NCBI RefSeq assembly: GCF_014681765.1
Contig: NZ_CP061501.1
Coordinates: 1-64,000 of the forward strand
Source of the DNA: Roseicitreum antarcticum
GTDB taxonomy: Bacteria; Pseudomonadota; Alphaproteobacteria; Rhodobacterales; Rhodobacteraceae
Length of the DNA: 64,000 nucleotides
Direction: 5' to 3'
The translations under genes were made by a program, and so were the position numbers. The notes under the pieces are model-generated. The model searched no databases, was not told the origin of the DNA, and saw only the letters and a program-made list of their open reading frames with translations. Below, in pieces: positions 12,880 through 63,209 of this stretch (the first letter of the stretch is position 1; every line of letters starts with the position of its first letter).

Positions 12880-12954
12880 TCGCATTGGCGATCCTGTCTG
12901 GTCCTTTCTGATCTGACCCTGTTTTTGATTTCGGATACTCATCCGCAAAAGGGA

Positions 12955-12966: not shown

Positions 12967-13008
12967 TTGTCCTTTGGAACTCAGACCCTGATCCAAAGGA
13001 AAATCCCC

Positions 13009-36618: not shown

Positions 36619-36778
36619 CCGCACGTGCAGCGCGGTAAGGATGTTCTCGCGGGGTGTTGGCATGGTTTTACTTGATCATGATCTTGCAAATGGTTTCGGC
36701 TCCATGCCCCGCGCATGGAACGGTCCTGTCGCAAGGTTCTGAGTTGCGGGTGCGCGGTTAGCAACGAAGACGATGACT

Positions 36779-37672: not shown

Positions 37673-37772
37673 ACTGGATACCCTGTGAGTTTTTAGCACA
37701 CCACATCGAAAACTACGCGCTTTGGCTTGAATTGCAAGGGTGGCAATAGTTCCTGGAAAGGAGACACCCACC

Positions 37773-38363: not shown

Positions 38364-38511
38364 GACCGTCTGGAAGCTGATCCGTCTTTGGGCAAACCGA
38401 CACACTCAGCGCAGAAAACTGGCTCGGATGGAAGCTCATCACCGGGAGGATATTGGCCGAACCCTTCCGGAAGTTCGTCGCGAGTGCAAGAAGTGGTTCT
38501 GGCAGAAATAG
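38353..38511 (+). CDS. DUF1127 family small protein
   Basis: A 52-residue basic protein: MWFETVWKLIRLWANR, then RRKLARMEAHHREDIGRTLPEVRRE and KKWFWQK. This is the DUF1127 (YjiS-like) pattern, whose arginine-rich C-terminal motif in related proteins binds RNA or other proteins. The start lies 11 bases before the nitroreductase stop in another frame, so the two genes are coupled. Confidence 0.75.
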   Translation: MWFETVWKLIRLWANRHTQRRKLARMEAHHREDIGRTLPEVRRECKKWFWQK

Positions 38512-38614
38512 TTTCACCTCTCGACGCATCTAACTCCCAAGTCTGAAGCGGTATTTTTTCTGCGACATCGCAAAATCAAAATGATGCAAGCCAGATGTGC
38601 AGTCTGCTGAGCAG

Positions 38615-38792
38615 TCATTTTCCAAGCTTCCGCTCCACCCAATTCGCCACGATCAGTCCCGGCACCGCGTCATGCGCCCGTTCCGCATCCCGCGCGAGAT
38701 CCAGCCGCTTCGGCAGCTTCACCTGCGGCACCAGCAGGAAGATCGGCACAGTGGTGCGCCCGCGACCGGTCTGTGAGCGTGGCCGCTTTGTT
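38615..38792 (-). pseudogene. C-terminal remnant of a phage DUF6441-type protein
   Basis: The minus-strand frame from a TAA near 38795 to TGA 38615 reads KRPRSQTGRGRTTVPIFLLV, then PQVKLPKRLDLARDAERAHD and LIVANWVERK. This matches my memory of the end of DUF6441 phage morphogenesis proteins. The N-terminal three quarters are missing. It is an outlier of the prophage remnant found at 41.3-44.1 kb. Confidence 0.6.
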
Positions 38793-42641: not shown

Positions 42642-42932
42642 ATGACACCACCACGATCCGATGGCGACTTCGTGCGCATCCCCGACGCCGAATTCGAGGC
42701 CATGCTGGCGCGCGCCGCCGAAAAGGGCGCGAAACGCGCGCTCGCGGATGTCGGCCTCGATGGCAACGAAGCGGCGCTCGACATCCGCGATCTTCGCTCG
42801 CTGCTCATTTGCATCCGGGTCATCCGCCGCACCGCCATGCAGACCGCCGTCCGGATGATCACGACCGCGGCGATGCTGGCACTGCTGGCAGGCATCGCCA
42901 TCAAGCTGAAGATCTTTGGCGGCGGGCCGTAA
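42642..42932 (+). CDS. DUF6127 family membrane protein (holin-like position)
   Basis: A 96-residue protein. FEAMLARAAEKGAKRALADVGL and ALDIRDLRSLL are the DUF6127 pattern. One transmembrane segment, AVRMITTAAMLALLAGIAI, is followed by a short basic tail. It precedes the endolysin-like gene, the position where phages encode holins, but a holin role is only inferred. A terminator follows at once. Confidence 0.78.
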   Translation: MTPPRSDGDFVRIPDAEFEAMLARAAEKGAKRALADVGLDGNEAALDIRDLRSLLICIRVIRRTAMQTAVRMITTAAMLALLAGIAIKLKIFGGGP

Positions 42933-42967
42933 GCGCCGACCAGCACACCGCGAACGCCAACCCGCAC

Positions 42968-42990
42968 CCGCCCTCGAGGCGGCTTTTTTT
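42968..42990 (+). terminator. Intrinsic terminator before the endolysin-like gene
   Basis: CCGCC (42968-42972), loop CTCGA, GGCGG (42978-42982), then CTTTTTTT. The stem is short but GC-rich. Confidence 0.75.
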
Positions 42991-43006
42991 GTTCTCGGAG
43001 GACCCA

Positions 43007-43681
43007 ATGACAACAACTTTCCATCACCACTGGCGCGACGTGCCCAAAGCCACCTGGCGCTGGCGCAACTTTTCCCCGGCCGAGATCGCCTGCCGTGGCA
43101 CCGGCAAACTGCTGATCAACCCTGCCGCCCTCGACAAGCTGCAGGCCCTGCGCGACCGGCTCGGCAAGCCGCTGATCGTGCGCTCCGCCTATCGCAGTCC
43201 GGAGCACAACCGGGCGGTGGGCGGGGCGACGGCGTCGAAGCACATGAACGGCACGGCTTTCGACATTGCCATGGCGAACCACGATCCAGTGGCGTTCGAA
43301 GCTGCTGCACGCGCCATCGGCTTCCTCGGGTTTGGCTTCTACCCGCGTTCTGGCTTTATCCATGTCGATCTCGGACCGGCCCGGCAGTGGGGCGAGCGGT
43401 TCCCGGCACGCGCGGTACCCTTCGCGGCCGAAACGCCGCCCGCACGCGAAGTGCTGGCCGAAAGCCGCACCATGAAAGGCAGTGGCGCTGCTGGCGTGGC
43501 GACTATCGGCGCGGCCGGTGTCGAGGTGGCGCAAGAAATCCTGGCCGAAACCCAATCCGCCATCCTGCCGCTGGTGCCCTATCTCGATACCCTGCGCTGG
43601 GTGTTCATTGCTGTTGCGCTGATTGGCATCGCTATCGCCATTCACGCCCGGCTCGATGACTGGAAGCGGGGGCAGCGATGA
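43007..43681 (+). CDS. M15-family D,D-peptidase/endolysin with C-terminal membrane anchor
   Basis: A 224-residue protein. The peptidase M15 zinc motif is complete: SAYRSPEHNRAVGGATAS, SKHMNGTAFDIAM (His and Asp ligands) and the terminal FIHVDLG (third ligand). It cuts peptidoglycan cross-links at lysis. Residues about 195-212 form a transmembrane helix (VFIAVALIGIAIAIHA), unusual for a free endolysin and perhaps a signal-anchor-release type. GGAGG lies 8 bases upstream. The stop overlaps the next start (ATGA). Confidence 0.87.
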   Translation: MTTTFHHHWRDVPKATWRWRNFSPAEIACRGTGKLLINPAALDKLQALRDRLGKPLIVRSAYRSPEHNRAVGGATASKHMNGTAFDIAMANHDPVAFEAAARAIGFLGFGFYPRSGFIHVDLGPARQWGERFPARAVPFAAETPPAREVLAESRTMKGSGAAGVATIGAAGVEVAQEILAETQSAILPLVPYLDTLRWVFIAVALIGIAIAIHARLDDWKRGQR

Positions 43682-45748: not shown

Positions 45749-46951
45749 TCATGCGGCGTCCTCCCATGGTGGCGCGCGGGACTTGGGTGTTTGTCCGCGT
45801 TTGAAGGTCTCTATGACGATCATGGCACCGCCGCACTTCGGGCAAGGCTGAGACTGGTCGCGCTCGTCAGTATCGACGGTCTGACCTTCATCGGCATTGT
45901 TATTGGCTTCCGCTTCAACTTCCAGCAACTTCCTGATCATCTTGATGCGTTCACGGCGAATGCCGTTTGCGAGGAAGCCTGTGTGGCGGATGCGATGGAA
46001 GCCGGAGGGCAAGACATGGGTCAGGAAGCGGCGGATGAACTCTGGCGTGCTCAGATGCATGATCCTCATCCGATCACCATGTTTGATACGGTAGTCTTTC
46101 CAGCGGAAAGCCACGGTGTCGGCATCGGCGCTGATCAGTCGATGATTTGAGATCGCCACGCGGTGCGTGTAACGGCTCAAGTATGCCAATACGGCCTCCG
46201 GTCCGCCGAAGGGTGGCTTGGCATAAACGACCCAGGCGGCTTTTCGCAGCGGGGCAAGGTGGGCCGCGAAGGTATCCGGGTCAGCCAACTTTGCCAGATC
46301 ACCGAAGAAGACCAGCTTGCCTGCCTTGTGCAACCGGATCAGACCTTCGAGGAACAAACGCCGAAACAGTCGCGACAGGACCTTCACCGGCAGGAAGAAC
46401 CCAGGTCTGCAGGCGGTCCAGCGGGCGCCGTCCGGCGATAGCCCACCGCCCGGCACAATGACATGGACATGGGGGTGATGGGTCATCGCAGACCCCCATG
46501 TGTGCAGCACGCTGGTCATGCCAATCTTTGCGCCAAGGTGTCTTGGATCAGCTGCGATGGTCAGCAGCGTCTGTGACGACGCCTTGAACAGCAGACCATA
46601 GACCGCTGCCTTGTTCTGATAGGCAATATCGGCGATCTGGGCTGGCAAGGTGAAGACCACATGGAAGTATTCGGCCGGTAACAGGTCTTCCATCCGCGCC
46701 TGCATCCAGCCCTGGGCTGCCGCGCCCTGACACTTTGGACAATGCCGGTTGCGACAGGAGTTATAGGCAACATGCTGATGATCGCATTTGGTACAGGCAG
46801 CGACATGCCCGCCAAGCGCTGCGGTCCGGCAAGCCTCGATAGCAGACATCACCTTCAACTGCGGCAGGTTAAGGTGTCCGGCGTGGTCCCGGCGATAGGC
46901 AGCACCATGGGCGCGGAAGATATCCGCGACCTCCAGTTTGGGGCGGGGCAT
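45749..46951 (-). CDS. IS91-family HUH transposase
   Basis: A 400-residue protein. N-terminal zinc-binding region: HVAACTKCDHQHVAYNSCRN, RHCPKCQG. The HUH motif is in MTHHPHVHVIVPGGG, and the catalytic tyrosine region is AVLAYLSRYTHRVAISNHRL. A second zinc knuckle (QPCPKCGGAMIVIE) is near the end. It nicks one strand and transposes by rolling circle, often carrying flanking genes. It seems complete. Confidence 0.92.
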   Translation of the reverse strand: MPRPKLEVADIFRAHGAAYRRDHAGHLNLPQLKVMSAIEACRTAALGGHVAACTKCDHQHVAYNSCRNRHCPKCQGAAAQGWMQARMEDLLPAEYFHVVFTLPAQIADIAYQNKAAVYGLLFKASSQTLLTIAADPRHLGAKIGMTSVLHTWGSAMTHHPHVHVIVPGGGLSPDGARWTACRPGFFLPVKVLSRLFRRLFLEGLIRLHKAGKLVFFGDLAKLADPDTFAAHLAPLRKAAWVVYAKPPFGGPEAVLAYLSRYTHRVAISNHRLISADADTVAFRWKDYRIKHGDRMRIMHLSTPEFIRRFLTHVLPSGFHRIRHTGFLANGIRRERIKMIRKLLEVEAEANNNADEGQTVDTDERDQSQPCPKCGGAMIVIETFKRGQTPKSRAPPWEDAA

Positions 46952-46963
46952 CGGAGCCGAGGT

Positions 46964-47836
46964 TTATCCGGCCCCAGCTTCCCTGCGCACCAGCAGATCA
47001 AGCGGGCTGGTGACGTCGCGGATCGTCTTGGTGGCCACCTGTGTGTAGATCGTCGTCGTTTCCAACTTGGCGTGCCCCAGCAGAACCTGAATGACCCGAA
47101 TGTCGGTTCCGCCCTCAAGCAGATGTGTGGCAAAGCTGTGCCGGAGCGTGTGAGGTGACACAGCCTTCTTGATCTCGGCAAAGTCGCAGGCTACCCCGAA
47201 AGCCCGATTGAACTGCCGCGTCGAGATCGGGTCGATGCGATTGCGACCCGGGAACATCCAGCCCCCTGGACGCGCTTCGCGGTAATAGTCGCGCAGAAGA
47301 TCCAACAGGCTTGGTGACAACATCACATGGCGGTCCTTGCCGCCCTTGCCCTGGTCCACCCGGATCAACATGCGGTCGCTGTCGATATCGCCAACCTTCA
47401 AATGCGTGACTTCACTCGCCCGCAACCCGCCACCATAGGCCACGCTGAACGCTGCCCGATACCTCAGCCCTGGTCCGGGCGCGGCTTCAAGAATACGCGC
47501 GACCTCTTCGGCGCTCAGCACCACCGGGATCTTCTTGGCGGCACGCTGATATCGCATATGCCGCTTCATCTCGGGGCGCGGACACGTCGTTGCAAAGAAG
47601 AAACTCAACACTGTCAGCCGGTTGTTGAAGGTCGGCGCACCAACTCCGCGTTCCTTCATATCCAGTTGAAACGCCCGCAATTCTTCTGGCGTGGCGCTAT
47701 CCGGCGCGTGCCCCAAGAAGAGGGTGAAATCGCGCATCCCTCGCAAATACATCGTCTGCGTCTTCGACTGCAGCCCTTTGATCCGCATGTCTTCGAGAAA
47801 CCGCTGGCGCAGCGCCGGTACATACTGGTCTGACAT
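46964..47836 (-). CDS. Tyrosine recombinase of the IS91-type unit
   Basis: A 290-residue XerC/D-like recombinase. N-terminal SAM-like domain with MRIKGLQSKTQTMYLRGMRD; catalytic Arg in AYGGGLRASEVTHL; the HxxR box in SPHTLRHSFATHLLEG; the distal His in LLGHAKLETT and Tyr in TIYTQV. It lies upstream of, and probably co-transcribed with, the HUH transposase. Its role may be to resolve circular intermediates. Confidence 0.92.
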   Translation of the reverse strand: MSDQYVPALRQRFLEDMRIKGLQSKTQTMYLRGMRDFTLFLGHAPDSATPEELRAFQLDMKERGVGAPTFNNRLTVLSFFFATTCPRPEMKRHMRYQRAAKKIPVVLSAEEVARILEAAPGPGLRYRAAFSVAYGGGLRASEVTHLKVGDIDSDRMLIRVDQGKGGKDRHVMLSPSLLDLLRDYYREARPGGWMFPGRNRIDPISTRQFNRAFGVACDFAEIKKAVSPHTLRHSFATHLLEGGTDIRVIQVLLGHAKLETTTIYTQVATKTIRDVTSPLDLLVRREAGAG

Positions 47837-50782: not shown

Positions 50783-51589
50783 TCACTGCACTGATACGGG
50801 CCGCAACATGTCATCGGTGTCCAATTTCAGGGCGCTGCGCCACAGGGGCGTCTTGAAGACGTGATGCACATGTTTGCCTTCGCGCTCTTCACGGGTCTGG
50901 ACAAGCAGCCCTGCCCATTCAAGTGGGTGCAAGACGCAAGATGAGAAGGTGGCCATTTCGCGCCATCCCGCAATGTCCCAATCATGTTCCTCGCCATAGA
51001 ACGCCGCGAACAACGCGCCTTCGGTTGTCCCGTGATCTGCCTCGACGTTGATCACGTTCATCCAGACATCCCACTTGCCGAATGGACGATCCTCAAAGCG
51101 CGCATAGGACGCGTGATCGATCTGGAGAATGAAGAAGGGGACCAGTTCAGCGAATAGCTTCCCCGGTGTCTGTGCCAGTTCCGTACCGCGCTTGGTCAGC
51201 CGGAATTCATCTTTGAAGTGCCGCCCCAAGCGCAAGGTGATTAAGAGGAAATGCAGGAGCTCGAGCGGCGGGAACTCGTATTCGTTAATGACTTTGTTGT
51301 AGCGGAACATCTCCTCCGCGCTGCTGCCGGGCCAGTCAAAATGCTCAACCGCCCAATGCACGAAGACGCGCTTGAACGCCTTGGTCTTTGTCAAACCAAT
51401 GGCCTCGTGCTCCTGCGCGTACTGCAGCGTTAACAGCGCCGCCCGCAGCAACGGCGAGTGCTTTAGGTCAGGGTGGTCATTAGAGAGAGTGCGGAATTTG
51501 ATCATGACGGAATGCTGCCACAAGGTTTTCGGGCAGGCCAGATCCAAAAAGGCCACCTGTTTGAGGGGGGACTCGTCAAACGTTGACAA
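50783..51589 (-). CDS. Hypothetical cytosolic protein beside the tRNA-fMet site
   Basis: A 268-residue protein (or 240 from the internal ATG 51505, MIKFRTLSNDHPD). Helix-rich with AALLTLQYAQEHEAIGLTKT, KRVFVHWAVEHFDWPGSSAEEM and HPLEWAGLLVQTREEREGKH; it could contain a winged helix. I do not recognise it. It lies on the host side of the island junction. Confidence 0.65.
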   Translation of the reverse strand: MSTFDESPLKQVAFLDLACPKTLWQHSVMIKFRTLSNDHPDLKHSPLLRAALLTLQYAQEHEAIGLTKTKAFKRVFVHWAVEHFDWPGSSAEEMFRYNKVINEYEFPPLELLHFLLITLRLGRHFKDEFRLTKRGTELAQTPGKLFAELVPFFILQIDHASYARFEDRPFGKWDVWMNVINVEADHGTTEGALFAAFYGEEHDWDIAGWREMATFSSCVLHPLEWAGLLVQTREEREGKHVHHVFKTPLWRSALKLDTDDMLRPVSVQ

Positions 51590-51614
51590 GGCGTTGACAA
51601 GTACCGCGCAAGCA

Positions 51615-51641
51615 AAAGCCCGACTGATTAGGTCGGGCTTT
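51615..51641 (-). terminator. Intrinsic terminator downstream of the tRNA-fMet 3' piece
   Basis: AAAGCCCGAC (51615-51624) pairs perfectly with GTCGGGCTTT (51632-51641), loop of 7. It lies 25 bases beyond the tRNA 3' end, where the original tRNA transcript would terminate. Confidence 0.8.
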
Positions 51642-51666
51642 AAGCGTTTGATTTAGCGTTGTTTTT

Positions 51667-51713
51667 TGGTTGCGGGAGTAGGATTTGAACCTACGACCTT
51701 CAGGTTATGAGCC
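51667..51713 (-). other. att core: 3' part of a tRNA-fMet gene (47 bp)
   Basis: Read on the minus strand from 51713, GGCTCATAACCTGAAGGTCG continues through TAGGTTCAAATCCTA to CTCCCGCAACCA. This is the anticodon loop (CAU), variable loop, T arm, acceptor strand and CCA of an initiator tRNA. The 5' half is absent: beyond 51713 the sequence is unrelated. A lone tRNA 3' half next to a tyrosine integrase is the usual scar of island integration. The orientation says the island lies to the right. Confidence 0.88.
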
Positions 51714-52122
51714 TATGGACCCAGATTTTCACTAATCTTTTCAATTCAGTAGCTTAGCCTACAAGCCTTTGAAATCGCAAAACCTGATGGTCGTCGTTCG
51801 ATGGAGATGCACGGATTTCGAAGGATTGTCGCGGGTTGGAGCGGACCAAAACTGCATACATGGGTTGAGGTGGCGTTGAGGTGGACAGGACGATTCTGAT
51901 CTAAGCATAATCATACAGCATGCTGCCGCAGCGCATTTGACCCTCGTCTTTCCCTCGGGCGATTGAACGGACGGAGGCACCGTCAAATCCTTCACATTCG
52001 AGTGGTCTTACGTACTCAGACTTTGAGAGACCGCCCCGATCAGACCCGGTAGGCAGCCGCGTGGCTTCTTGCTCAAGTTGTGCTTTTTCCTATACACTTG
52101 CACAGAAATGAGGAGACCGCTT
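51714..52122. other. Island left-end non-coding segment
   Basis: About 410 bases between the att core and the SIR2 gene. No convincing gene. Moderately AT-rich, unlike the host side. Confidence 0.5.
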
Positions 52123-53691
52123 GTGACAGACATCACCGAACAGTTGACAAAACTCTTAGGCGACAACGCAGGTGCTCCATTCTTGTTTGTCGGATCGGGT
52201 TTTTCGCGCAGATACATCGGTCTTCCTCAGTGGGACGAGCTCCTTGCGAGCTTCTGTGGCGAAATTCGTGAATTCGGTTATTATGCGTCACAAGCCAACA
52301 ACGACCTTCCAAGCGCCGCAAGCCTCATGGCGAAGGATTTTAACGAGGTTTGGTGGAATTCAGAAAACTATGCAGCCTCCAGAGCGAGCAATAAGGCAAT
52401 CGTTCGCGAATATGCTTCCGCTCTGAAAGTTGAAATCGCAGCATACCTGACCCGTCAATCTTACACACGCGTCCCTGATGAATCTCTCGCAAGGGAGCTT
52501 GCAGCAATACCGCGACTGAACGTTGACGGAATAATAACCACAAATTGGGATATATTTCTTGAGGAGCTTTTCCCCGACTATAAGGTGTTTATTGGCCAAG
52601 AGGAATTGCTATTCTCTAATCCGCAATCTGTAGCGGAGATTTATAAGATTCATGGTTGCGCAAGCCAACCAAATAGCCTTGTGCTGACCCAAGAAGATTA
52701 TGATAGGTTTGAAGCAAAGAATGCATACCTTGCAGCCAAGTTGATCACTATATTTATTGAGCACCCGGTCATCTTCATGGGATACAGCTTAGGTGACAAG
52801 AATATTCAAAGCATAATCTCGTCAATTGTAAGCTGCTTGAGCCAAGACAAACTCGACAAGTTTGGCAGAAATCTTATTTTTCTGCAGCGGTGCAGTCAAA
52901 ATGAGCCGGGAGGCTTTCAACCATCGATGATGGCCATTGGCGAGACCAATCTGAACATTACCGTGATTAAGACAAATGATTTCACGGAAGTGTTTGATGC
53001 GATTGAAACAACTAAAAGGAAAATTCCTTCGCGGATCCTGCGCTACTGTAAAGAGCAAATGTACGACTTAGTTCGCGACACGGAATCTCATGGAAAGCTG
53101 GCGGTTGTCGATATTGATCAGATTGAGAATAAAGACGATATTGAATTTGTCGTTGGAGTTGGAGTCGCCGGCCTTCACGAGAAGATTACACAAAAGGGAT
53201 ATCAGGGAATTTCCTTGGATGAAGTGTTTGATGATATTTTAGCACCTTCTTCTAAGTTCAATTCCGACGATCTTCTGAGTGGCGTGTATCCATCACTTCT
53301 CAGACGCCCAAATAAATACATACCTGTTTATCGATACCTCCGCCAATCTGGTATTGACAGTATTACGGCCCTGAAATCATCGAAGCACGGCTCTATTGAG
53401 GGTCTTATTCGGCGCTCCCAATCTGGACGATTGGCGGGATACCAGGGGCAATATGACAGGATTTGCGTAGGAAAATCCACGCAGGAGATCATTGATCTGG
53501 TTACGCCACAAAAGGCGTCAATCCTTCTCCAGTTTCAAAATGACGACCAGATTGACATGGATGCGCTCCACACATTTTTGATTGCAAATCGAGAGAAGTT
53601 CAACTCCGAGAACTCAACCTACTCAAGTTATTTCAGAAAGCTGGCCTGCCTGTTTGATCGGCTGAAGTTTGGATTCCCCCTAACCGAGTGA
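52123..53691 (+). CDS. SIR2-family NAD-binding protein, probable anti-phage effector
   Basis: A 522-residue protein. GTG 52123 is the best start, with GAGGAG 7 bases upstream. The SIR2_2-type domain spans about 1-270: FLFVGSGFSRRY (NAD loop, about 24), IITTNWDIFLEELFPDY (about 140), EIYKIHGCASQP (about 175) and HPVIFMGYSLGDKNI. The C-terminal 250 residues are helical and unassigned. SIR2 proteins of this sort deplete NAD+ when phage infects. The gene is strikingly AT-rich compared with its neighbours and is the first gene inside the island. No HerA or other partner is present. Confidence 0.85.
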   Translation: MTDITEQLTKLLGDNAGAPFLFVGSGFSRRYIGLPQWDELLASFCGEIREFGYYASQANNDLPSAASLMAKDFNEVWWNSENYAASRASNKAIVREYASALKVEIAAYLTRQSYTRVPDESLARELAAIPRLNVDGIITTNWDIFLEELFPDYKVFIGQEELLFSNPQSVAEIYKIHGCASQPNSLVLTQEDYDRFEAKNAYLAAKLITIFIEHPVIFMGYSLGDKNIQSIISSIVSCLSQDKLDKFGRNLIFLQRCSQNEPGGFQPSMMAIGETNLNITVIKTNDFTEVFDAIETTKRKIPSRILRYCKEQMYDLVRDTESHGKLAVVDIDQIENKDDIEFVVGVGVAGLHEKITQKGYQGISLDEVFDDILAPSSKFNSDDLLSGVYPSLLRRPNKYIPVYRYLRQSGIDSITALKSSKHGSIEGLIRRSQSGRLAGYQGQYDRICVGKSTQEIIDLVTPQKASILLQFQNDDQIDMDALHTFLIANREKFNSENSTYSSYFRKLACLFDRLKFGFPLTE

Positions 53692-53901: not shown

Positions 53902-55158
53902 ATGGTCAACAGGCTGAAACTGAATGAGAAAACCGTCCGGGAGGCCGAAAACCTGGGGCGGGATTACCAGATCTTCGACACCGACGTACGTGGGTTCTCG
54001 ATCACCATCTACCCCTCGGGCAACCGGGCCTTTACGCTGGACTACCGGATCGCGGGACGGCAGCGACGGATGACCATCGGGCGCTGGCCGGAGTGGAACG
54101 CGGTCGCGGCGCGCGAACGGGCCAAGGAACTGCGGCGCGACATCGATGAGGGGATCGATCCCCTCAGTCTGCGGGAGACGTCGCGCGAGGCACCGCGGGT
54201 CAACGACATGATCGCGCGGTATCTGGCGGAACACACACCGCACCTTGCCGCCCGCAATGCAGCCGATCAACACACGATCATGCACAAGCTGGTAGCGCCC
54301 GACTGGGGCAAGAAGCTGGTTACCGAGATCACAAAGGCCGATGTGGAAAAGCTGCTGACCAAGATCGCCGCTGGCCGCGCCCGGCCCTCGAAGGCCAAGC
54401 CGAACAATCGGGCGCGCAAGCTGCAGGGGCCTAAGCCCACGCCGGTGCGCGCCAACCGGGTGGGTGAGGTGCTGCGCAAAATGTTCACGCTGGCCATCGA
54501 CTGGGGCATGCGCGCCGACAATCCCGCCAGCGGCTTCCGCCGCCGGATCGAAGATGAACGCGAGCGGTTCCTGACGCCGGAAGAAATCGGGCGGCTGGCC
54601 AAGGCACTGGATGCGGCCAAGGATCAGCGTGCGGCGGGGATTATCCGGCTCTGCATGCTGACCGGCGCGCGGTCGGGCGAGGTGCGTCAGGCGCGGTTTG
54701 AACAGTTCAACCTTGACCTCGGCAGCTGGTCAAAACCTGCCGCGACCACCAAGCAGCGCAAGATCCACCGTATTCCGATCTCGGGCGATGTGGCGGCCAT
54801 CGTGCGCGAGCGGTCACTGCTGGTGCCGCGCGGCAATCCGTGGCTCTTTCCCGGCGACACGCCCGGCCAGCCGGTCAAGGAAATCCGCCGGTTCTGGATC
54901 GGAATCCAGACCGAGGCCAATCTGCCCGACGTCCGGATCCACGACTTGCGCCACACCTTTGCATCGCTGTTGGTCAGCGGCGGGGCCTCGTTGGAAATGA
55001 TCGGCAAGCTGCTGGGCCATACGCAGATGCAAACGACCCAGCGCTATGCCCATCTGATGGACTCGCCCCTGCGCGACGGGGTCAATGCCGTTGCCAGCAT
55101 CTTCCGGCCCCGGCCGCAGTTGGTGCATGACGCCGATCAGGACCACAAAAGCGCCTGA
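53902..55158 (+). CDS. int: Tyrosine integrase of the island
   Basis: A 418-residue phage-type integrase. The N-terminal arm-binding domain (YQIFDTDVRGFSITIYPSGN, MTIGRWPEWNAVAARERAKE) is the DUF4102-like form typical of tRNA-targeting islands. Catalytic residues: Arg in LTGARSGEVRQ, HxxR in IHDLRHTFASLL, His in LLGHTQMQTT and Tyr in QRYAHLM. It should recombine the attP with the tRNA-fMet att core at 51667. It lies about 2.2 kb inside the element. Confidence 0.93.
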   Translation: MVNRLKLNEKTVREAENLGRDYQIFDTDVRGFSITIYPSGNRAFTLDYRIAGRQRRMTIGRWPEWNAVAARERAKELRRDIDEGIDPLSLRETSREAPRVNDMIARYLAEHTPHLAARNAADQHTIMHKLVAPDWGKKLVTEITKADVEKLLTKIAAGRARPSKAKPNNRARKLQGPKPTPVRANRVGEVLRKMFTLAIDWGMRADNPASGFRRRIEDERERFLTPEEIGRLAKALDAAKDQRAAGIIRLCMLTGARSGEVRQARFEQFNLDLGSWSKPAATTKQRKIHRIPISGDVAAIVRERSLLVPRGNPWLFPGDTPGQPVKEIRRFWIGIQTEANLPDVRIHDLRHTFASLLVSGGASLEMIGKLLGHTQMQTTQRYAHLMDSPLRDGVNAVASIFRPRPQLVHDADQDHKSA

Positions 55159-55177
55159 TCGGGTCAAACTTGTCGCC

Positions 55178-55774
55178 TCATTCCTTTTCGCGCAGCGCGC
55201 GCCAGATCGGCGCGATCTTCTTGCGCGTCGTACTTTCCTCCGGAATCTCGCCCGTGGGCGAGTTCTGGGCAAACCAGTCCTGCACCTCGGCGATCAGATC
55301 GGCCTGCGTTGCAGGCACGCCATGGTCGTTGATGCGGCGGAACAGCATGATGTTCATGCCCTCCCAATCGTAACGCGGGGCCGAGCCAGGCGACACGAAG
55401 TGGCGGCGCAGCAAATCGCGCTCGTCCTCGAACTTCTGCACCTCCTCGGCCAGCAGCATCAGATCGGTGATCTTGATCAATACGCCATCCGCCGGTTCGG
55501 TGATGTATTGCCATTCCGTACTGCCCTGCGGCCGGATCCGGAACACCCGGCATTCCTCGTCGCTCGGGCCATGACGGCGGAACATCCGCATCATGTCGGC
55601 GGCGGTAACCACCACGATCCCGGCCACCGGCTGCTTGCCACAGATCACCGAGGCGATGCTGGTGACAAGGGTCAGATGGTCGGTCGCCGCCCATCCTGCC
55701 AGATCGGCAGCGGCACAACCCCAACGGGCGGATGTTTCGGTAAGGGAATAGAAGGCTCTTGGTGGCAGGGTCAT
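55178..55774 (-). CDS. Hypothetical protein of integrative elements
   Basis: A 198-residue protein (MTLPPRAFYSLTETSARWGC), the only minus-strand gene in this part. An N-terminal helix-turn-helix-like segment (AFYSLTETSARWGCAAADLA) suggests DNA binding. The middle is mixed alpha/beta (EWQYITEPADGVLIKITDLM) and the C-terminus helical (ATQADLIAEVQDWFAQNSPT). I have seen similar genes next to integrases in Rhodobacterales, but no function is known. Confidence 0.7.
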   Translation of the reverse strand: MTLPPRAFYSLTETSARWGCAAADLAGWAATDHLTLVTSIASVICGKQPVAGIVVVTAADMMRMFRRHGPSDEECRVFRIRPQGSTEWQYITEPADGVLIKITDLMLLAEEVQKFEDERDLLRRHFVSPGSAPRYDWEGMNIMLFRRINDHGVPATQADLIAEVQDWFAQNSPTGEIPEESTTRKKIAPIWRALREKE

Positions 55775-56018
55775 GGCTGGTACGTCCTTTCTTCATTCAG
55801 CAATACCCGGGCCAGTACCGGGCATGGCAGGGATCGCGTTCCCGACCAGCGGCTTGCCAACCTGCTCGCCATCCAGAAACACGCCTCAAGGTGTCTTCAA
55901 TCGGCCATGTCTGGAGAACCGGGTGAAATGCACCTCGTTTATCTGAAACACGCACAGGTAGAATCGGCTTGAGCTGACCAAGACAGCTATTCTTGTTTTA
56001 GGCGAATTGTCGTTAACA

Positions 56019-56043
56019 TCCCTGTCAGGTTCGGTCAGGGATT
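56019..56043. promoter_or_regulatory. Inverted repeat at the start of the WYL gene
   Basis: ATCCCTG (56019-56025) and CAGGGAT (56037-56043) flank an 11-base spacer. The right arm contains the ribosome-binding AGGGA of the gene at 56048, so a protein bound here would block both transcription and translation. Autoregulation by the WYL protein is inferred. Confidence 0.5.
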
Positions 56044-56047
56044 GAAG

Positions 56048-57046
56048 ATGGATAACAAAAGGCTGGGCAAGGCCCTCGACATCATGCGTCTGGCGGAAGA
56101 GGCCGCGGCACGGCCCGGTGGCATCAGCCTGGTGCAGATCGTGGAGACCTTCGGCGTGACCCTGCGCACGGCGCAGCGCATGTCACGCGCGCTGGAGGTC
56201 GCCTTCCCGATGGTCCAAACCCGGACCGACCAAGCCCGGCGCAAGTGGTGGCAGTTGCCTGACAGCCGCCTGCTGCACATGCAGGGTATCCGCGACAGCG
56301 AGCTGTCGGCGCTTGAAATGGGCATCCGGCGCGCGGAACGCGACGGGGCAGCGACAGAGGTCACGGCACTGACATCGCTGCGCAACCGCCTGCTGGCGAC
56401 GATGCCGCCGACCTTTGCCCGGCGTGCCGAGGTGGATGCCGAGGCGGTGCTGGAAGCACGGGGCCACGCCTGCCGCCCCGGACCCCGCGCGCAGTATTCT
56501 GCCCATGTTCTGGGCGTGATCGACGCTGCGCTGAAAGGCCCCTTCACCATGCAAATCGACTATGCAGCGGCGCAGGATACCGCGCCACGGTCGCGGCCGA
56601 TCGAACCTTATGGCGTGCTGTTCGGCATGCGTGGATATCTGATTGCCCGCGAAATCGGTAACAGCAAGTATCGCCATTACCGTCTGGATCGGATTGCAAG
56701 TGCCAGCCTGCTGCAGAATTCCTTCCTGCGCGATCCCGACTTCGATCTTGGCAAACACGCGGCCCGGGCGTTCGGGTCATTCCATTCCGATGCAGAATAT
56801 GGGCCAGTGGAATGGCGATTTGCGCCTTCAGCGGCCGGGGTCGCGCGGACCTTCATCTTCCATCCTGACCAGCACATGCAGGATGAGGCCGACGGCAGCC
56901 TGACCGTCCGGTTCAGCGCTGGGGGCTGGCTGGAAATGGCCTGGCACCTCTATCAATGGGGCGATGCTGTCGAGGTGATCTCCCCGCCTGAAGTGCGCAG
57001 CCTCGTCGATGCTTACCGCCGCAGCGATTTTCCCGCCTTGCCCTGA
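56048..57046 (+). CDS. WYL-domain regulator of the island
   Basis: A 332-residue protein. N-terminal winged helix: RLAEEAAARPGGISLVQIVE, TFGVTLRTAQRMSRALEVAF. The WYL domain is at about residues 170-240 (GPFTMQIDYAAAQ, PIEPYGVLFGMRGYLIAREI, SKYRHYRLDRIASASLL), followed by a WCX-like tail. WYL regulators of the BrxR/CapW kind repress defence operons and respond to nucleic-acid signals; here it may set the switch between maintenance and excision or defence. ATG 56048 is 7 bases after AGGGA. Confidence 0.85.
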   Translation: MDNKRLGKALDIMRLAEEAAARPGGISLVQIVETFGVTLRTAQRMSRALEVAFPMVQTRTDQARRKWWQLPDSRLLHMQGIRDSELSALEMGIRRAERDGAATEVTALTSLRNRLLATMPPTFARRAEVDAEAVLEARGHACRPGPRAQYSAHVLGVIDAALKGPFTMQIDYAAAQDTAPRSRPIEPYGVLFGMRGYLIAREIGNSKYRHYRLDRIASASLLQNSFLRDPDFDLGKHAARAFGSFHSDAEYGPVEWRFAPSAAGVARTFIFHPDQHMQDEADGSLTVRFSAGGWLEMAWHLYQWGDAVEVISPPEVRSLVDAYRRSDFPALP

Positions 57047-57350
57047 CGCCGGAACGGGTGTTTTACCCCGCGCCACCCGGTTGGCGTCGCGCCCTGCCGA
57101 TGAAATCCAGCTTGCAGCGTTACGCGCCTCGATCAGCAGGGCTGATCTGCCACAGATGACCGGAAATGTCGGAATGGCGCTGGGCGGCGTTTCCGATTCG
57201 CATTCCGGGTCAGCAGCACAAACCCAATAAAACAAGGACCGGAATTGTCTCCGGCCTTTCAATTCCGGTCTCTGCCTAGGTTCCGGTCCTTCTCGTCTGC
57301 TTCCCTCGCCCCGTCTCCGGCATCTGCCGGGATCTGGATAGGAGACCGAA
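57047..57350. promoter_or_regulatory. Control region upstream of the excisionase-like gene
   Basis: Three hundred bases without a gene. It contains a perfect 11-bp inverted repeat, AAGGACCGGAA (57234-57244) and TTCCGGTCCTT (57281-57291), with a nested GGAATTG/CAATTCC pair (57241-57247, 57260-57266). The second copy of the 27-bp direct repeat is here (57260-57286). Such nested sites fit repressor or excisionase binding. Confidence 0.6.
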
Positions 57351-57599
57351 ATGCAGACCATAGCCCCTGCCACGCAGGACCAACCCCTCAACTTGCTGGC
57401 CGACTGGATCAGCCGCGAACAGCTGGCCGGTGAACTCGGCATTGCCTGCGACACGCTGGCCCGCTGGGAGGCCCGCCAGCTTGGCCCGCCCTGCACGCGG
57501 ATCGGACGCAAGGTGCTGTATCGGCGCACGACAGTGGAGAACTGGATCAACGCGCAGGAACAGACCCGCCCGGCGCGGACACGGCGGGGGCGGAAATGA
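57351..57599 (+). CDS. Excisionase-like helix-turn-helix protein
   Basis: An 82-residue protein with a MerR/AlpA-type winged helix: DWISREQLAGELGIACDTLA, RWEARQLGPPCTRIGRKVLY, RRTTVENWI. The R-x-S-R-like wing binds DNA in excisionases. GGAGA lies before ATG. It opens a chain of six genes that overlap by four bases each (ATGA or GTGA), which suggests one polycistronic message. Confidence 0.8.
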   Translation: MQTIAPATQDQPLNLLADWISREQLAGELGIACDTLARWEARQLGPPCTRIGRKVLYRRTTVENWINAQEQTRPARTRRGRK

Positions 57600-57862
57600 A
57601 CCACCCCTTGTCCCACTCTCCTGTAATCCCGCCGTCCACCACTGGCGACTGGATGCACGACCGCCTGACCGAGGCGCGCGGCGTCCTCGCTGACACCACC
57701 CAGCATCCGGACTCGCTGGTCATCCTCGCGGCACGGGTTGTCATCGGTCAGACCAACGATGCCGTTGAGTGTGGCGATGCGCTGGAGCTGCTGCGCCTAC
57801 TGGATCGGCGGCCGCTGCACGCCATCGCGGCAGCCGCTTTTCCGAAAGGAGGTGCCGCATGA
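57596..57862 (+). CDS. Small protein of the replication cassette, unknown
   Basis: An 88-residue protein (MNHPLSHSPVIPPSTTGDWM) that overlaps the genes on both sides by four bases. The C-terminal two thirds are helical (RVVIGQTNDAVECGDALELL). No motif is recognised. Its place between an excisionase-like gene and a VRR-NUC gene suggests a phage accessory role. Confidence 0.65.
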   Translation: MNHPLSHSPVIPPSTTGDWMHDRLTEARGVLADTTQHPDSLVILAARVVIGQTNDAVECGDALELLRLLDRRPLHAIAAAAFPKGGAA

Positions 57863-58254
57863 ACCGGCGCAGCACACCCGAAGCCGATGCCCAGCGCGCC
57901 ATCGTGCAGGCACTGCGGTTCGCCCTGCCGCGCGATGCCATCGTTCATCACTGCGTCAACGAAGTGACTGAGGCCGGACCCCGCGGTGCCAAGCGCCAGT
58001 CGATCCTTGTCGGCATGGGCGTCCATGCCGGATTTGCCGATCTGATCGTGATCTGTGGCGGCTGCGTGCTGTTTCTGGAGGTCAAAAGCGCCACCGGCCG
58101 ATTGCGCAAATCGCAGGAGGTGTTTCGCGACACGGTCTGCGCCCAAGGCTTCGGCTGGGCGCTGGTGCGGTCGGTCGACGATGCGCTGGGCGCGCTGGCC
58201 GACCATGGCTTCACCAGTCGCGCGCAACTTCCAGTTCGGAGGGTCGCGCCATGA
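57859..58254 (+). CDS. VRR-NUC domain nuclease
   Basis: A 131-residue stand-alone VRR-NUC domain of the PD-(D/E)xK superfamily. E-rich first helix (STPEADAQRAIVQALRFALP), then AGFADLIVICGGCVLFLEVK, where the Asp and the ExK pair form the metal site, and the helix LRKSQEVFRDTV. Phage VRR-NUC proteins cleave branched DNA or act with replication proteins. It is coupled by overlaps to the genes before and after. Confidence 0.88.
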   Translation: MNRRSTPEADAQRAIVQALRFALPRDAIVHHCVNEVTEAGPRGAKRQSILVGMGVHAGFADLIVICGGCVLFLEVKSATGRLRKSQEVFRDTVCAQGFGWALVRSVDDALGALADHGFTSRAQLPVRRVAP

Positions 58255-59210
58255 GCCACAAGGCGACCGTCTGGGCCATCCAGCAACGCGGGCTGAAACC
58301 TGCCACCAAGATCGTGCTTTGGTTTCTCTGCGACCGGCACAATCCGGATTTCGGCTGCTTTCCGACGCAGGCGCGGCTGGCCGACGACGCAGAGATGTCG
58401 ATCTCGGCGCTGAACGACCACCTCACCAAGCTGGAAGAGCTGCGTCTGATCCACCGCGTCCGCATCCATGATCCGCGCACCCACAAGCGTCAGGCCACCC
58501 GCTACATCCTGGGGTTTGAAGAGGGGTTTCCACAAGAGCCAACTCCGGAAACCGGAGACGGCTTTTGCGGAACGGAGGAAGAACAGCACACCGACCCAAC
58601 TCCGGATTCCGGACATGGGGCCATCTCCGGGTTTTCGCCAATCCCATCTCCGGATTTTACCCAAAGCCATCTCCGGAATCCGGAGACTAACCTTGTAAGA
58701 GAACCCTTAAGTAAACCTGTAAAGGAGGAGGAGGACGCACGCGCGAAAGTTTCGGATGATTTTTTTGCAGAGCTGCTCACAGCACTGGGCCTCAAAGCCA
58801 ACGCCACGCTGCCCGCCTGGTGGCAGGGCTGGCCCGCCAAGCTGCACGTCCAGCGCTGGATCGATGATCTCGGGCTGACCGAGGATCGGATCATCGAGGT
58901 GGCGACCGAGAGCCGGGGCGATCATCCCAATCCGCCAGATGGCCCCAAGGCCCTCGATAGGTTCATGGAACGCGCGGCCCAGCGCGATGCACAAGCTGCC
59001 GCAAGTGGCAGTGGCCGCAACGCCAAGCGCAGCCGCAAGCCCCAAGTCAAGCCGGTGCTTAACCCGGATGAACTGGCAAAATTCTATGCGGACATCGTCA
59101 ACTCGGACAAGTTTCTGCCTCCCAGCATGATCAGCAACGCCATGTGCGGGGCGATGCTGACGCGAAGACTGGTGACCACGGAACGGTTGCGCCAGCGAGG
59201 GGTGCTGTGA
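58251..59210 (+). CDS. Lambda O-like replication initiation protein
   Basis: A 319-residue protein. The N-terminal winged helix (MSHKATVWAIQQRGLKPATK, CFPTQARLADDAEMSISALN, DHLTKLEELRLIHRVR) is of the kind found in phage and plasmid replication initiators. A low-complexity linker, residues about 95-150, is encoded by the iteron region at 58541-58690. The C-terminal part (HVQRWIDDLGLTEDRIIEVA) may recruit the helicase or loader. The layout, with the origin inside the initiator gene, is that of lambda O. It is coupled to the VRR-NUC gene and to the methyltransferase gene. Confidence 0.78.
   Translation: MSHKATVWAIQQRGLKPATKIVLWFLCDRHNPDFGCFPTQARLADDAEMSISALNDHLTKLEELRLIHRVRIHDPRTHKRQATRYILGFEEGFPQEPTPETGDGFCGTEEEQHTDPTPDSGHGAISGFSPIPSPDFTQSHLRNPETNLVREPLSKPVKEEEDARAKVSDDFFAELLTALGLKANATLPAWWQGWPAKLHVQRWIDDLGLTEDRIIEVATESRGDHPNPPDGPKALDRFMERAAQRDAQAAASGSGRNAKRSRKPQVKPVLNPDELAKFYADIVNSDKFLPPSMISNAMCGAMLTRRLVTTERLRQRGVL
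58541..58690. repeat. Iteron array inside the replication gene (candidate origin)
   Basis: Five CTCCGG-centred repeats at about 58543, 58600, 58625, 58648 and 58671; the last four are spaced 23-25 bases, about two helical turns. Three contain the fuller form CTCCGGAWWCCGGA. An AT-rich stretch follows at 58687-58720 (CTAACCTTGTAAG, CCCTTAAGTAAACC) and could be the unwinding region. The repeats encode the linker of the initiator. Confidence 0.7.
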
Positions 59211-60460
59211 ATGGCATGGTGCTTCGTCCCCGGCACGGATTGTCCCTCTGCGCAGGTGGCGGAGGCCTTGATCTGGGCCTCATGCTCACTGAGCCCGGCT
59301 ATCACACCCGAGCCTTTGTCGAGTGGGAGGACTGGCCGCGAACTGTGCTCATCGCCGCCCAGCGCGCAGGCTATTTCGCCCCGGCGCCGATCTGGGATGA
59401 TCTCCGCAGTTTCGATGCTCGGGTCTTTCACGGCGCCTTCGACATCGTCCTCGCCGGATATCCCTGCCAGCCCTTCAGCGCCGCTGGCAAGCGCGAAGGG
59501 ACCAACGACCCCCGCCACCTCTGGCCCGATGTCGCCCGCATCACCCGAGAATGCCGCCCCGCATGGGTCTTCCTCGAAAATGTCCCCGGTCACGTCACCC
59601 TCGGGCTTGAGACCGTGCTGCGAGAACTTTGGGACATGGGCTACACGCCTGCGGCGAGTCTGTTCTCGGCGGCAGAAGTCGGCGCGCCGCATCAGCGGCT
59701 GCGCATCTTCATCCTGGCCCACACCGTTGAGCCTGCATCCCGGCACGGATCGGTACAATCCGGCGGGGAACAGCGATTTCACCCGCAAGGCCGAAGCGCT
59801 GGCGCTGGGCATCACCAACAATTGGTCGACACCCAAGGCTACGGACGGCGCGAAGGGTGGGCCGGGCCAGAGCTATGGCTCGGGCGGGGTGCCGCCCCTG
59901 CCAGCGCAGGCGGCGCAATGGCAAACGCCGGTGGCGGACGATCAGATGGACCGGCTGCGCGGCAAGATCAACAGCCGGGGCGAGCCGAAGCTGTCGGCGC
60001 AAGCGCTGCAATGGCCGACCCCGGCGGCGCAGAACTGGAAGGGATCGAGCGAGACCAGCGTCATACGGGCCGATGGCAAAAGTCGGATGGATATTCTGCA
60101 TTACCGAGCGGAGCAGGGCTTCACCCACCCGGTCCCGGCGATCATGCCGGATGGGCGGCAGTGCTCCCATCACGCCCCGATCTCGCGCCCGCTCTGGGCT
60201 TCAATGATTGCATCGCATGGGCGCGCCGCATGTCGGCGGATCCTGAAGGGCCGGTCGCGGCGACGGCTGAACCCGCTCTTCGTCGGATGGCTGATGGGCT
60301 GGCCCATCGGGCACGCGCTTTGCGCCTGCTCGGCAACGGAGTTCATCCTCTGGCAGCAGCACATGCGTGGCGCTCTCTCGCGGCTGCCCATGGCCTCGGG
60401 CCCGTGGATTTGGCAACCGACTACCGGGACGGAAGGCCCAACGCAGATGAGCCTGTTTGA
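59207..60460 (+). CDS. C5-cytosine DNA methyltransferase (phage Dcm-like)
   Basis: A 417-residue protein starting GTG 59207, overlapping the previous stop. Motif I: LSLCAGGGGLDLGLML; motif IV with the catalytic Cys: LAGYPCQPFSAAGKRE; motif VI: WVFLENVPGH; motif VIII: GAPHQRLRIFILA; and a motif X-like end LRLLGNGVHPLAAAHAWRSL. The target-recognition region, about 180-330, is low-complexity and Gly/Ala-rich. The same DNA from 59727 on is also open in the +1 frame with a family-like sequence. Phage Dcm enzymes protect DNA from restriction. Confidence 0.8.
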   Translation: MNGMVLRPRHGLSLCAGGGGLDLGLMLTEPGYHTRAFVEWEDWPRTVLIAAQRAGYFAPAPIWDDLRSFDARVFHGAFDIVLAGYPCQPFSAAGKREGTNDPRHLWPDVARITRECRPAWVFLENVPGHVTLGLETVLRELWDMGYTPAASLFSAAEVGAPHQRLRIFILAHTVEPASRHGSVQSGGEQRFHPQGRSAGAGHHQQLVDTQGYGRREGWAGPELWLGRGAAPASAGGAMANAGGGRSDGPAARQDQQPGRAEAVGASAAMADPGGAELEGIERDQRHTGRWQKSDGYSALPSGAGLHPPGPGDHAGWAAVLPSRPDLAPALGFNDCIAWARRMSADPEGPVAATAEPALRRMADGLAHRARALRLLGNGVHPLAAAHAWRSLAAAHGLGPVDLATDYRDGRPNADEPV

Positions 60461-60476
60461 CGGATTGCAGCCATGA
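59727..60476 (+). CDS. Overlapping +1-frame reading of the methyltransferase 3' half
   Basis: From TTG 59727 this frame encodes about 249 residues and reads like a real phage protein: LHPGTDRYNPAGNSDFTRKA, ITNNWSTPKATDGAKGGP, LQWPTPAAQNWKGSSETSVI, DGKSRMDILHYRAEQ and RRLNPLFVGWLMGWPIGHAL, ending MSLFDGLQP. I recall this text from C-terminal parts of Dcm-like proteins in other alphaproteobacteria. Its stop overlaps the next gene by four bases (ATGA), as with every other gene of the cassette. It may be the original C-terminus displaced by a one-base indel near 59738, a separate product, or the product of frameshifting. Confidence 0.6.
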   Translation: MSLHPGTDRYNPAGNSDFTRKAEALALGITNNWSTPKATDGAKGGPGQSYGSGGVPPLPAQAAQWQTPVADDQMDRLRGKINSRGEPKLSAQALQWPTPAAQNWKGSSETSVIRADGKSRMDILHYRAEQGFTHPVPAIMPDGRQCSHHAPISRPLWASMIASHGRAACRRILKGRSRRRLNPLFVGWLMGWPIGHALCACSATEFILWQQHMRGALSRLPMASGPWIWQPTTGTEGPTQMSLFDGLQP

Positions 60477-61165
60477 GCGCCCAAGGCAGGATCGGCCGCG
60501 CGGGTGGTGCAAAAGTCAAACGCTCGCTGGGTGTCCAGGCGGCGCTGGAATGGGCGTTTCGGGTCGAGCGGGCGCAGCTGGAATTGCCGCCGCCAAAAGA
60601 CGTGACGGAGGAAGGGTTTGGCTTTGGCCTCGAATACGTCCTCCTCCAGCGTGCCATACTTGGCTGCAAAGTGGACGGCGGGCAGCACAAAATGGGCAGT
60701 TACACCCACCCAGACGCAGAGGTGATCGCCGCCACCGTTGCCGGGATCCCTGACAGCCTCGGCGGTATCCGCATGGCGATCCGTATGGCCGAACTGGCAA
60801 GGGCCGGGATGACCCCGGACTGGATGCCCGGCGTCGTGCCGCGCTGCGTGCCGGTGGAAATCAAACGCAATCAGCACGGCGAGCGGTCGACGACGGTGGT
60901 GGTTGGCACTGAACGGGTGCTGACCCGGGGCAAATGGCGCACCATTGAGGTCTTGGCCTGTCCGGTCACCTGGCGGCCGCATCCGGAACAGATCGCCTCC
61001 GTTCGGCGCGGCTATGAGGATTGGTGGCAGGCGCTGGATTGGTTGCGCGATGGGCTTTTGGCAGGGCGCATGTTGCGGGATATGGAGGTGACAACGGCGA
61101 TGCCGAAGGTTCGGCCATGGCAGCATCAACGCATCGATCCAGTCGTGCAACCTATGCAAATTTGA
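60473..61165 (+). CDS. Phage-type hypothetical protein
   Basis: A 230-residue protein (MSAQGRIGRAGGAKVKRSLG). The N-terminal helix LGVQAALEWAFRVERAQLEL, the segment YTHPDAEVIAATVAGIPDSL, and LACPVTWRPHPEQIASVRRG are recognisable as a family seen in alphaproteobacterial prophages, between methyltransferase and terminase-side genes; no function is known. It is the last of the coupled cassette and overlaps the 3' end of the convergent DUF262 gene by 14 bases. Confidence 0.75.
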   Translation: MSAQGRIGRAGGAKVKRSLGVQAALEWAFRVERAQLELPPPKDVTEEGFGFGLEYVLLQRAILGCKVDGGQHKMGSYTHPDAEVIAATVAGIPDSLGGIRMAIRMAELARAGMTPDWMPGVVPRCVPVEIKRNQHGERSTTVVVGTERVLTRGKWRTIEVLACPVTWRPHPEQIASVRRGYEDWWQALDWLRDGLLAGRMLRDMEVTTAMPKVRPWQHQRIDPVVQPMQI

Positions 61166-63209
61166 TGAAAAGCTCCTCTTCCATGCCCAGTTCAGTCAAC
61201 GCTAATTTGAGGCGCTCAAACTTGTTGGTTGAGTCAATATTGCCCTCAATGAAATAGCCTTCCGCGATCTTGACCGCCTGACGCAGTGTGTCGGGTTCGG
61301 ACGTCAGCTGTATTCTCTCTCCCAGCTTTGTACCTTGGAATGACTCTGGCTGCAGGACCAGTAGCTGCTCAAAAACCTCGACATAGAGTTTGGCGACCTG
61401 TGTTACATGTAAACGTGTGCCAAGGAAAACCGCATAGTCCAGGCGCTTGAAGCGGGGCTCCTCCGAGTCGAAAATGTTGACTTCATCGCCATTCGGTTCC
61501 GCGAGAACGTCGATCGAAGGTGCTGGCCAGACTTCCAGAAAGCGATTTGCGATACGATCAGCCCGGGCTTCAACCTGCTGGACTCCCCATTCATCAAGGG
61601 TCTGAAGATCACGGTTGAGCCATAGGCGGCTGAAGCGATACCCCTGCTCGCCGCCATCTTCGTTCATGTCACGCTTGTCGACGAAAACCTTGTTCCCCAA
61701 CCGACCGTTGTTTCCGGAAAGAGTGAGGTTCCCAACTGTGTTGAGGTATTGCTCCCCGAGCAAAGCATACTCGTCAGCTGCCAGCTCACTCCGCCAACCT
61801 GCTTCCGGATTTTGAGGGAAAATGTGTTCCACCGTTATGCCCGGCACTGTGACATCCACCACTTCCCTGTTTTTGTGGTTTTCCAAGCGGTCGAAGAAAT
61901 ATGTCCGCGTCCGGCTTTTGGTGCTGTAGATATCCTTCTCCCGCAACATCGCCATAACCTCTGCATCCCGCGGGAAACGCTGGCTCCCACCGCGCTGCAT
62001 CAAGGCACGCTCGATCGACACCAGATACTCTGCGGGTTCGACTCGGTCGTAAAGGCTCATGAAAATCTTGTTCAAGGCATTTGTAGGAAGGCTTAGGATA
62101 AACCGGCGCCAGACGTAGCTCTGCACAAGTCGCAGAACGGACGCGAATACGTCGCTAGAAATGGTCCCGGCCGTGAAATCCCGATAGACCGGCATGAGGA
62201 AAGGAAAGGCCACATTTACTTCTAGCATCCGGATGTAACCCACCTCGCGCCGGATCATAGGGTCGTTTTCCAGGTTGGGGTTCAGAAGGCGCGCATAAAC
62301 GTTGGAAAATTCGCGCAACTCTTCAAGGGCATCCATTAAGTCGGAAGAGTTAGGAGCCGGATAACGCTCTTTAAACTTTTCATAGACCGCACCCTTATTG
62401 GGAATGTCTTTCTGTTTCAGCGTTAGAAAATCTCGAATGAAATCCGACACTCGGCTTTCGTTCACCTCAAGGTTTCTGGCATTTGCCTCGATAGGCTCCC
62501 AAAACTTCCGGAAAACTTGTTCCTGCTCTTTCCGTGGCAGCCCCATCAAGATGTAATTCCGAATCAGGTCAGCCTGCGAAAGCTCTAGGCCCGTCGAATT
62601 CAAGCTCTCGAAAATCCGCTGGGGGTTGTCCTTCTGTCGATCGAGGGCAATATCGACAAAGATCAGTTTTGGCAGACCGCGCTGAACAACATCAAAGTTG
62701 GTTTCCGTGATGCGCGTTTGGAAGAAACGGAAGTTCTCGATCAGCCGCGAATAGCCGCTGGCCTTCACGGCTTCCTTGGGGTCCATGATTTGTGCCAAGG
62801 CCACCTTATTGTTGTCCGTCGGCTTCAGCTTCAGCTTTTCGGTATCTTCAGCGAACTCGTTGATAAGATAGGTCTTATAGATGCGCTGGGCTTGCTGATC
62901 TTTCCCCGTGGCGATGGCATGCCGGTAAAGCGCGATGAAGATCAAAGTCAGCGTGGTCAGCCGTTGCTGCCCGTCAATGATCGTCAGCTCGCGCAAGCCC
63001 GACGCCGTGTAGACATCGTCATGGACGTAGACGATGCTGCCGATGAAGTGCCCCGACTGGCTCTCGTCAGCGCCGATGGCTAGGATATCATTGAATAACT
63101 GCTGGCACTGAACCCGGGTCCAGTCATAGTTTCGCTGGTAAACCGGAATGGCGAAAGCCGTCTCACTGCTGGCCAAGAATCGGTCGACGCGGGTTTCGGC
63201 AGCTTTCAT
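61152..63209 (-). CDS. DUF262/DUF1524 protein, GmrSD-like restriction enzyme
   Basis: A 685-residue single-chain protein. N-terminal DUF262 (ParB-like NTPase): IPVYQRNYDWTRVQCQQLFN, then TIIDGQQRLTTLTLIFIAL at about 76-94. The middle is helical. The C-terminal DUF1524 is an HNH-type nuclease: VPGITVEHIFPQNPE at about 460 and YLNTVGNLTLSGNNGRLGNK. This is the fused form of GmrS and GmrD, which restricts modified (for example glucosylated) phage DNA. It faces the phage-like cassette and diverges from the next defence gene. Confidence 0.9.
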   Translation of the reverse strand: MKAAETRVDRFLASSETAFAIPVYQRNYDWTRVQCQQLFNDILAIGADESQSGHFIGSIVYVHDDVYTASGLRELTIIDGQQRLTTLTLIFIALYRHAIATGKDQQAQRIYKTYLINEFAEDTEKLKLKPTDNNKVALAQIMDPKEAVKASGYSRLIENFRFFQTRITETNFDVVQRGLPKLIFVDIALDRQKDNPQRIFESLNSTGLELSQADLIRNYILMGLPRKEQEQVFRKFWEPIEANARNLEVNESRVSDFIRDFLTLKQKDIPNKGAVYEKFKERYPAPNSSDLMDALEELREFSNVYARLLNPNLENDPMIRREVGYIRMLEVNVAFPFLMPVYRDFTAGTISSDVFASVLRLVQSYVWRRFILSLPTNALNKIFMSLYDRVEPAEYLVSIERALMQRGGSQRFPRDAEVMAMLREKDIYSTKSRTRTYFFDRLENHKNREVVDVTVPGITVEHIFPQNPEAGWRSELAADEYALLGEQYLNTVGNLTLSGNNGRLGNKVFVDKRDMNEDGGEQGYRFSRLWLNRDLQTLDEWGVQQVEARADRIANRFLEVWPAPSIDVLAEPNGDEVNIFDSEEPRFKRLDYAVFLGTRLHVTQVAKLYVEVFEQLLVLQPESFQGTKLGERIQLTSEPDTLRQAVKIAEGYFIEGNIDSTNKFERLKLALTELGMEEELFIKFA

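Follow-up and report, generated by a model that had tools for sequence, protein, structure and literature searches.

In the attP of phage lambda, the core on which the tyrosine integrase acts lies between IHF sites and arm-type repeats, which are present on both sides. The locus described here resembles this arrangement, its core being flanked on both sides by IHF-like sites and putative arm repeats, but differs from it in that the arm repeats are pairs with an 11-bp period whose letters vary among prophages. Among described phages, the Roseobacter phage CRP-3 integrates into tRNA-Met (CAT), as verified by sequencing and PCR (PMC6918029). Its core likewise overlaps the 3' end of tRNA-Met(CAT) in an alphaproteobacterial host (PMC6918029), but CRP-3 is a member of the HMO-2011-type group and is likened here by description and not by sequence. 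A putative tRNA-Met target has also been proposed for prophage phiPam-6 of Paracoccus aminophilus, which belongs to the same bacterial order; the part of that report used here leaves unspecified which tRNA-Met is meant (PMC3925955). With regard to gene content, the closest terminase among deposited phages is that of the Rhodobacter capsulatus RcC cluster (e.g., RcBaka, RcOceanus), with 62% identity over 88% (PMC8601537). These phages are siphoviruses with a matching terminase, portal and capsid/protease gene order (PMC8601537), although RcBaka has no annotated integrase. Literature searches on tRNA-fMet prophage hotspots yielded little.

A tRNA-fMet 3' half on a putative repABC plasmid

The window analysed here covers the initial 64 kb of contig C4 (103,727 bp), which is part of a five-contig genome; coordinates without a contig prefix are those of C4. 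At 51667-51713, on the minus strand, it contains a 47-bp attachment core that corresponds to the 3' half of a tRNA-fMet, from the anticodon stem to the CCA, and has the termini GGCTCATAACC...CGCAACCA on that strand. The initiator tRNA half reported at this position by the first-pass annotation is real, matching the 3' half of chromosomal tRNA-fMet copy 1 (C1:3441461-3441505) at 47/47 positions. The core occurs once in the window, where shuffled sequences lead to an expectation of 0, and the window holds no complete tRNA. A second core, searched for at up to 16/47 mismatches, was found nowhere on C4. An opposite-strand partial near-copy at ~51781-51796 (14/16) is absent from other distal prophage ends and was dropped as a chance match. 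The two intact tRNA-fMet genes of the genome are both chromosomal and located at the ends of rRNA operons. Copy 2 (C1:1991454-1991498, rRNA operon 2) shows two compensating T-stem base differences (GTTGG/CCAAC), and the 3' half of this copy of the essential initiator tRNA was probably supplied by a prophage.

Because repA, repB and repC are present at 85841-89506, C4 is read as a putative repABC plasmid. No overlap between the contig ends was found, and when an ORF across the end join was sought as proof of circularity, the sole long frame was unconvincing. Plasmid backbone homology extends from 83728 (the query start), inside a recombinase gene that precedes repABC. The same recombinase precedes repABC in pPAN1 of Paracoccus pantotrophus and in Neotabrizicola shimadae, where no adjoining phage gene is annotated, and the repABC backbone is common to phage-free plasmid regions.

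Prophage family and the anatomy of its ends

The first-pass annotation had linked the core to a DUF4102-type integrase 2.2 kb away, and this link is well founded. The gene concerned (53902-55158, plus strand) has an open frame and encodes a tyrosine integrase identified by domain search, with an Arm-DNA-bind_3 domain, which we take to be the former DUF4102, and a Phage_integrase domain; a 94% identical relative is found in genome G121. Among 20 loci with close integrase relatives, taken both from the genome of the window and from others in the bacterial family, 15 have this tRNA-fMet 3' half close to the integrase and none of these has a complete tRNA beside it; two of the five loci without the core are contigs of less than 4 kb. 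The core-integrase linkage is conserved across genera. The gene order is also conserved and consists of integrase, regulators, methylases, terminase gpA, portal, S49 protease and capsid E, which in the chromosomal copies is followed by an M15 endolysin towards the tRNA. The elements of this family are read as temperate prophages of ~40-70 kb that use tRNA-fMet, and prophage-sized core spacings in single-contig arrays are mostly ~40-73 kb. What had been described as an island junction holds as an integration core at tRNA-fMet, while the element itself belongs to this prophage family and is not a generic island.

The initiator tRNA had also been considered a less common target, whereas in this bacterial family it is a common one: a hand count found more 3' halves than intact tRNA-fMet genes in ~77/297 genomes, a number that draft contig breaks can inflate. 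In IMG/VR, at least 120 stretches carry the core. In one genome, three prophage-sized elements stand in tandem at a single tRNA-fMet, with cores ~49-59 kb apart (G289:C4:266882-426427). Neither chromosomal prophage of the genome studied here was found to have a distal core beside it. Between the integrase near rrn copy 2 and the endolysin that comes next, there are 2.5 kb of sequence with transposase-like ORFs; the corresponding place near rrn copy 1 is occupied by a stretch 99% identical to it. tRNA-fMet copy 2 adjoins a prophage end. Directly after the proximal prophage end, both chromosomal tRNA-fMets are accompanied by a ParD/ParE-like toxin-antitoxin pair, recognized by eye, that is absent from C4.

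Comparison of the ends of these prophages reveals a recurrent layout. Read on the tRNA strand, the core is preceded in most distal ends by an 11-bp repeat pair at ~161 bp and by an IHF-like site at 63 bp, while proximal ends carry an IHF-like site 13 bp after the CCA, then a terminator, and then a repeat pair at ~66 bp. True host junctions lack the proximal IHF-like and arm sites and share their terminator with the unoccupied rrn copy. In genome G276, the 547 bp after the last core are 100% identical to the unoccupied second rRNA operon, and in G200 the host side is 82% identical over 216 bp to the unoccupied rrn copy. The terminator and the repeats at proximal ends are therefore prophage DNA. 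From their position and the known attP architecture, the repeat pairs would be integrase arm sites and the IHF-like sites would be bound by IHF.

On C4, this layout is present on both sides of the core, all sites being on the minus strand. To the left, 13 bp after the CCA, lies the IHF-like site AATCAAACGCTTA (51641-51653), which matches WATCAANNNNTTR at 13/13 positions, a score reached by ~0.1% of random 64-bp C4 windows, and which occupies the position common to other prophage ends. It is followed by a terminator palindrome, AAAGCCCGAC...GTCGGGCTTT (51615-51641), that a generic terminator scan missed and that resembles the terminators of other proximal ends, and by a direct repeat of type TTG with period 11, CTTGTCAACGCCTTGTCAACG (51581-51601), which recurs letter for letter as the arm next to chromosomal rrn copy 1. 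To the right, the distal IHF-like site TTTCAAAGGCTTG (51762-51774; 12/13) lies 63 bp before the core, as in most related distal ends, and is accompanied by a direct repeat of type ACC, again with period 11, CCACCTCAACGCCACCTCAAC (51864-51884). The core thus combines identity to a tRNA 3' end, an adjacent integrase, and predicted arm and IHF sites on both sides. Since the full set of sites is found on both sides, the left side of the C4 core is a prophage end. The left side had previously been assigned to the host and the terminator to the host tRNA; both turn out to be part of a prophage end.

Phage genes and arm types on C4

Phage DNA extends to the right of the core from 51714 to ~83625 and to the left over ~42.7-51.7 kb; relative to the core, its genes stand in circularly permuted order. 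Between core and integrase, the right part encodes a SIR2-domain protein (52069-53691, plus strand), a candidate defence gene by domain content and PADLOC (PDC-S25), in a stretch that is unmatched in the compared prophages. The early genes (55164-61165) form a block that is homologous in related prophages and includes a WYL/WCX regulator (56042-57046) and an HTH_36 protein (58251-59210). They are followed by a GmrSD-type restriction protein (61152-63209, minus strand), a variable cargo gene absent from the compared prophages. Adjoining it in the phage part, a 1650-aa type ISP/IIG restriction-modification enzyme is encoded at C4:63390-68342. At its other extreme, the head-gene end abuts the plasmid recombinase-repABC module. 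The left, proximal part includes an M15 peptidase (42809-43681, plus strand), a likely endolysin, which is 76-79% identical to genes located in the same orientation downstream of both chromosomal tRNA-fMets. An IS91-type transposase (45749-46951) and a second tyrosine recombinase (46964-47836), both on the minus strand, have been inserted here, and a decarboxylase and other cargo are also present. IS elements obscure the left limit of the phage DNA, as does a phage-flanked 2.2-kb block (36616-38772) in inverted orientation, which shares 97% identity with chromosomal prophage 1.

The prophage block is found again in relatives on the chromosome and in other genomes, and comparison with them shows that the tail region is missing from C4. 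Homology over the tail region was seen only between the chromosomal copies, in which the tail genes are not individually annotated. Because this region is missing, the C4 prophage copy is defective.

The arm letters of C4 differ between the two sides, being TTG on the left and ACC on the right. By arm types assigned by eye prior to the count, left and right letters agree in 10 of the 11 prophages with both ends readable (shuffle p ~2e-5), the exception being a 110-kb element (G237 e2), while at tandem junctions they agree in one case out of eight. Because the arms differ on C4 and agree within single prophages, two different prophages most likely meet at the C4 core, as judged from these sequence comparisons, although drift or an exchange of ends in one phage could also give a mismatch. 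The ACC type on the right matches the distal arms of the 94% identical integrase relative in G121. Integrase arm domains group by arm type: integrases that share distal letters stand out as more alike in the arm domain (0.80 versus 0.63) than elsewhere (0.84 versus 0.76), although shared ancestry contributes. At C1:16910-17015 there is another proximal end, of ACC type, that retains no more than the final 21 bases of the core, and neither intact tRNA-fMet of the genome has ACC-type proximal arms. The mixed arm types and the stray ACC end are taken to mean that several related prophages have exchanged sequence within the same cell. Past the stray end there is an RTX-like coding sequence and then, 6 kb on, an endolysin gene (23-24 kb).

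Origin of the C4 junction

In related prophages, the integrase would recombine the core with the tRNA-fMet 3' half that closes an rRNA operon. A new 3' half and terminator would come from the prophage, leaving the tRNA intact, and the old half would mark the far end of the prophage. The C4 core would then join the distal end of one prophage on the right, with SIR2, integrase, regulators, methylases, terminase, portal and capsid, to the proximal end of another on the left, with terminator, arms and endolysin. The core is thus probably an attP-type junction of two prophages, formed in tandem or by recombination, that was captured by a repABC plasmid and later degraded; the order of these events is deduced from the present arrangement.

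In a special case of this two-prophage junction, which differs only in the place where the junction formed, the plasmid itself once bore tandem prophages in a whole rRNA operon with a terminal tRNA-fMet, and deletion of the operon and of the outer prophage parts left only the internal junction. A tandem junction yields an identical layout, tRNA-fMet is present on several Rhodobacterales plasmids, and tRNAs of Sulfitobacter plasmids co-localise with rrn operons (PMC13386836). Such an origin is nevertheless unlikely for C4, which shows neither an rRNA operon nor a remnant of one (no Rfam rRNA match in the 64-kb window and no N-masked stretch on C4), and whose phage part abuts a plasmid recombinase that in relatives adjoins unrelated DNA.

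It is rather unlikely that a single temperate phage, now a phage-plasmid or carried intact by the plasmid, has its true attP at this core and is still able to integrate into chromosomal tRNA-fMet. The presence of one core flanked on either side by arms and IHF-like sites, the open integrase frame and a gene order permuted as in a circular phage agree with this. So do several viral contigs whose cores have matching arms left and right, as a free attP should: among 15 IMG/VR cores with repeats readable on both sides, ~7 agree, and the rest differ in the way that tandem junctions should. However, a single functional attP would have one arm type on both sides, whereas those of C4 are of different type; C4 also lacks the tail genes, and C1 carries another proximal end of ACC type next to a truncated core. 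C4 could also be a living phage-plasmid hybrid, its two-type attP letting it shuttle between an independent repABC plasmid and the initiator-tRNA genes and serve as a dock at which prophages of differing arm specificity are fused, which is quite improbable. A phage-plasmid combines replication genes with a complete phage set; on C4, repABC is present and the tail region absent.

The first-pass reading, with the host to the left, an island to the right and the intact tRNA-fMet beyond position 64000 at the far right end, is very improbable: tRNA polarity, a terminator on the expected side and a nearby integrase speak for it, but the left side has a prophage-type IHF-like site and arms, the intact tRNA-fMets lack ACC-type proximal arms, and C4 ends 39.7 kb past the window without the second core that would form the flanking direct repeat of a genomic island beside an intact tRNA, the very absence to the right that this annotation had named as evidence against itself.

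Since a phage brings along its own tRNA half and terminator, finding these two beside an integrase cannot fix the host side. Prophage ends are distinguished from host junctions by arm repeats and IHF-like sites, and the same marks separate single prophages, tandem junctions and attP sites in raw sequence. The link of arm letters to residues of the integrase arm domain makes arm-site specificity testable. Phages in these bacteria repeatedly swap more than half of an essential initiator tRNA gene for their own version, and the C4 site is ordinary biology of tRNA-targeting phages with an unusually legible anatomy.

A tandem array in another genome contains a ~1.4 kb element between cores with its own matched repeats, TGGTGCTAC (G093:C1:1016344-1017828; L109). 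On C4 itself, a 1448-aa Strawberry-notch-like helicase/methyltransferase is encoded at 12925-17271, near genes for an ArdC anti-restriction protein (3038-4060) and a ParB-like protein (4929-6911), a gene content that resembles a plasmid leading region.
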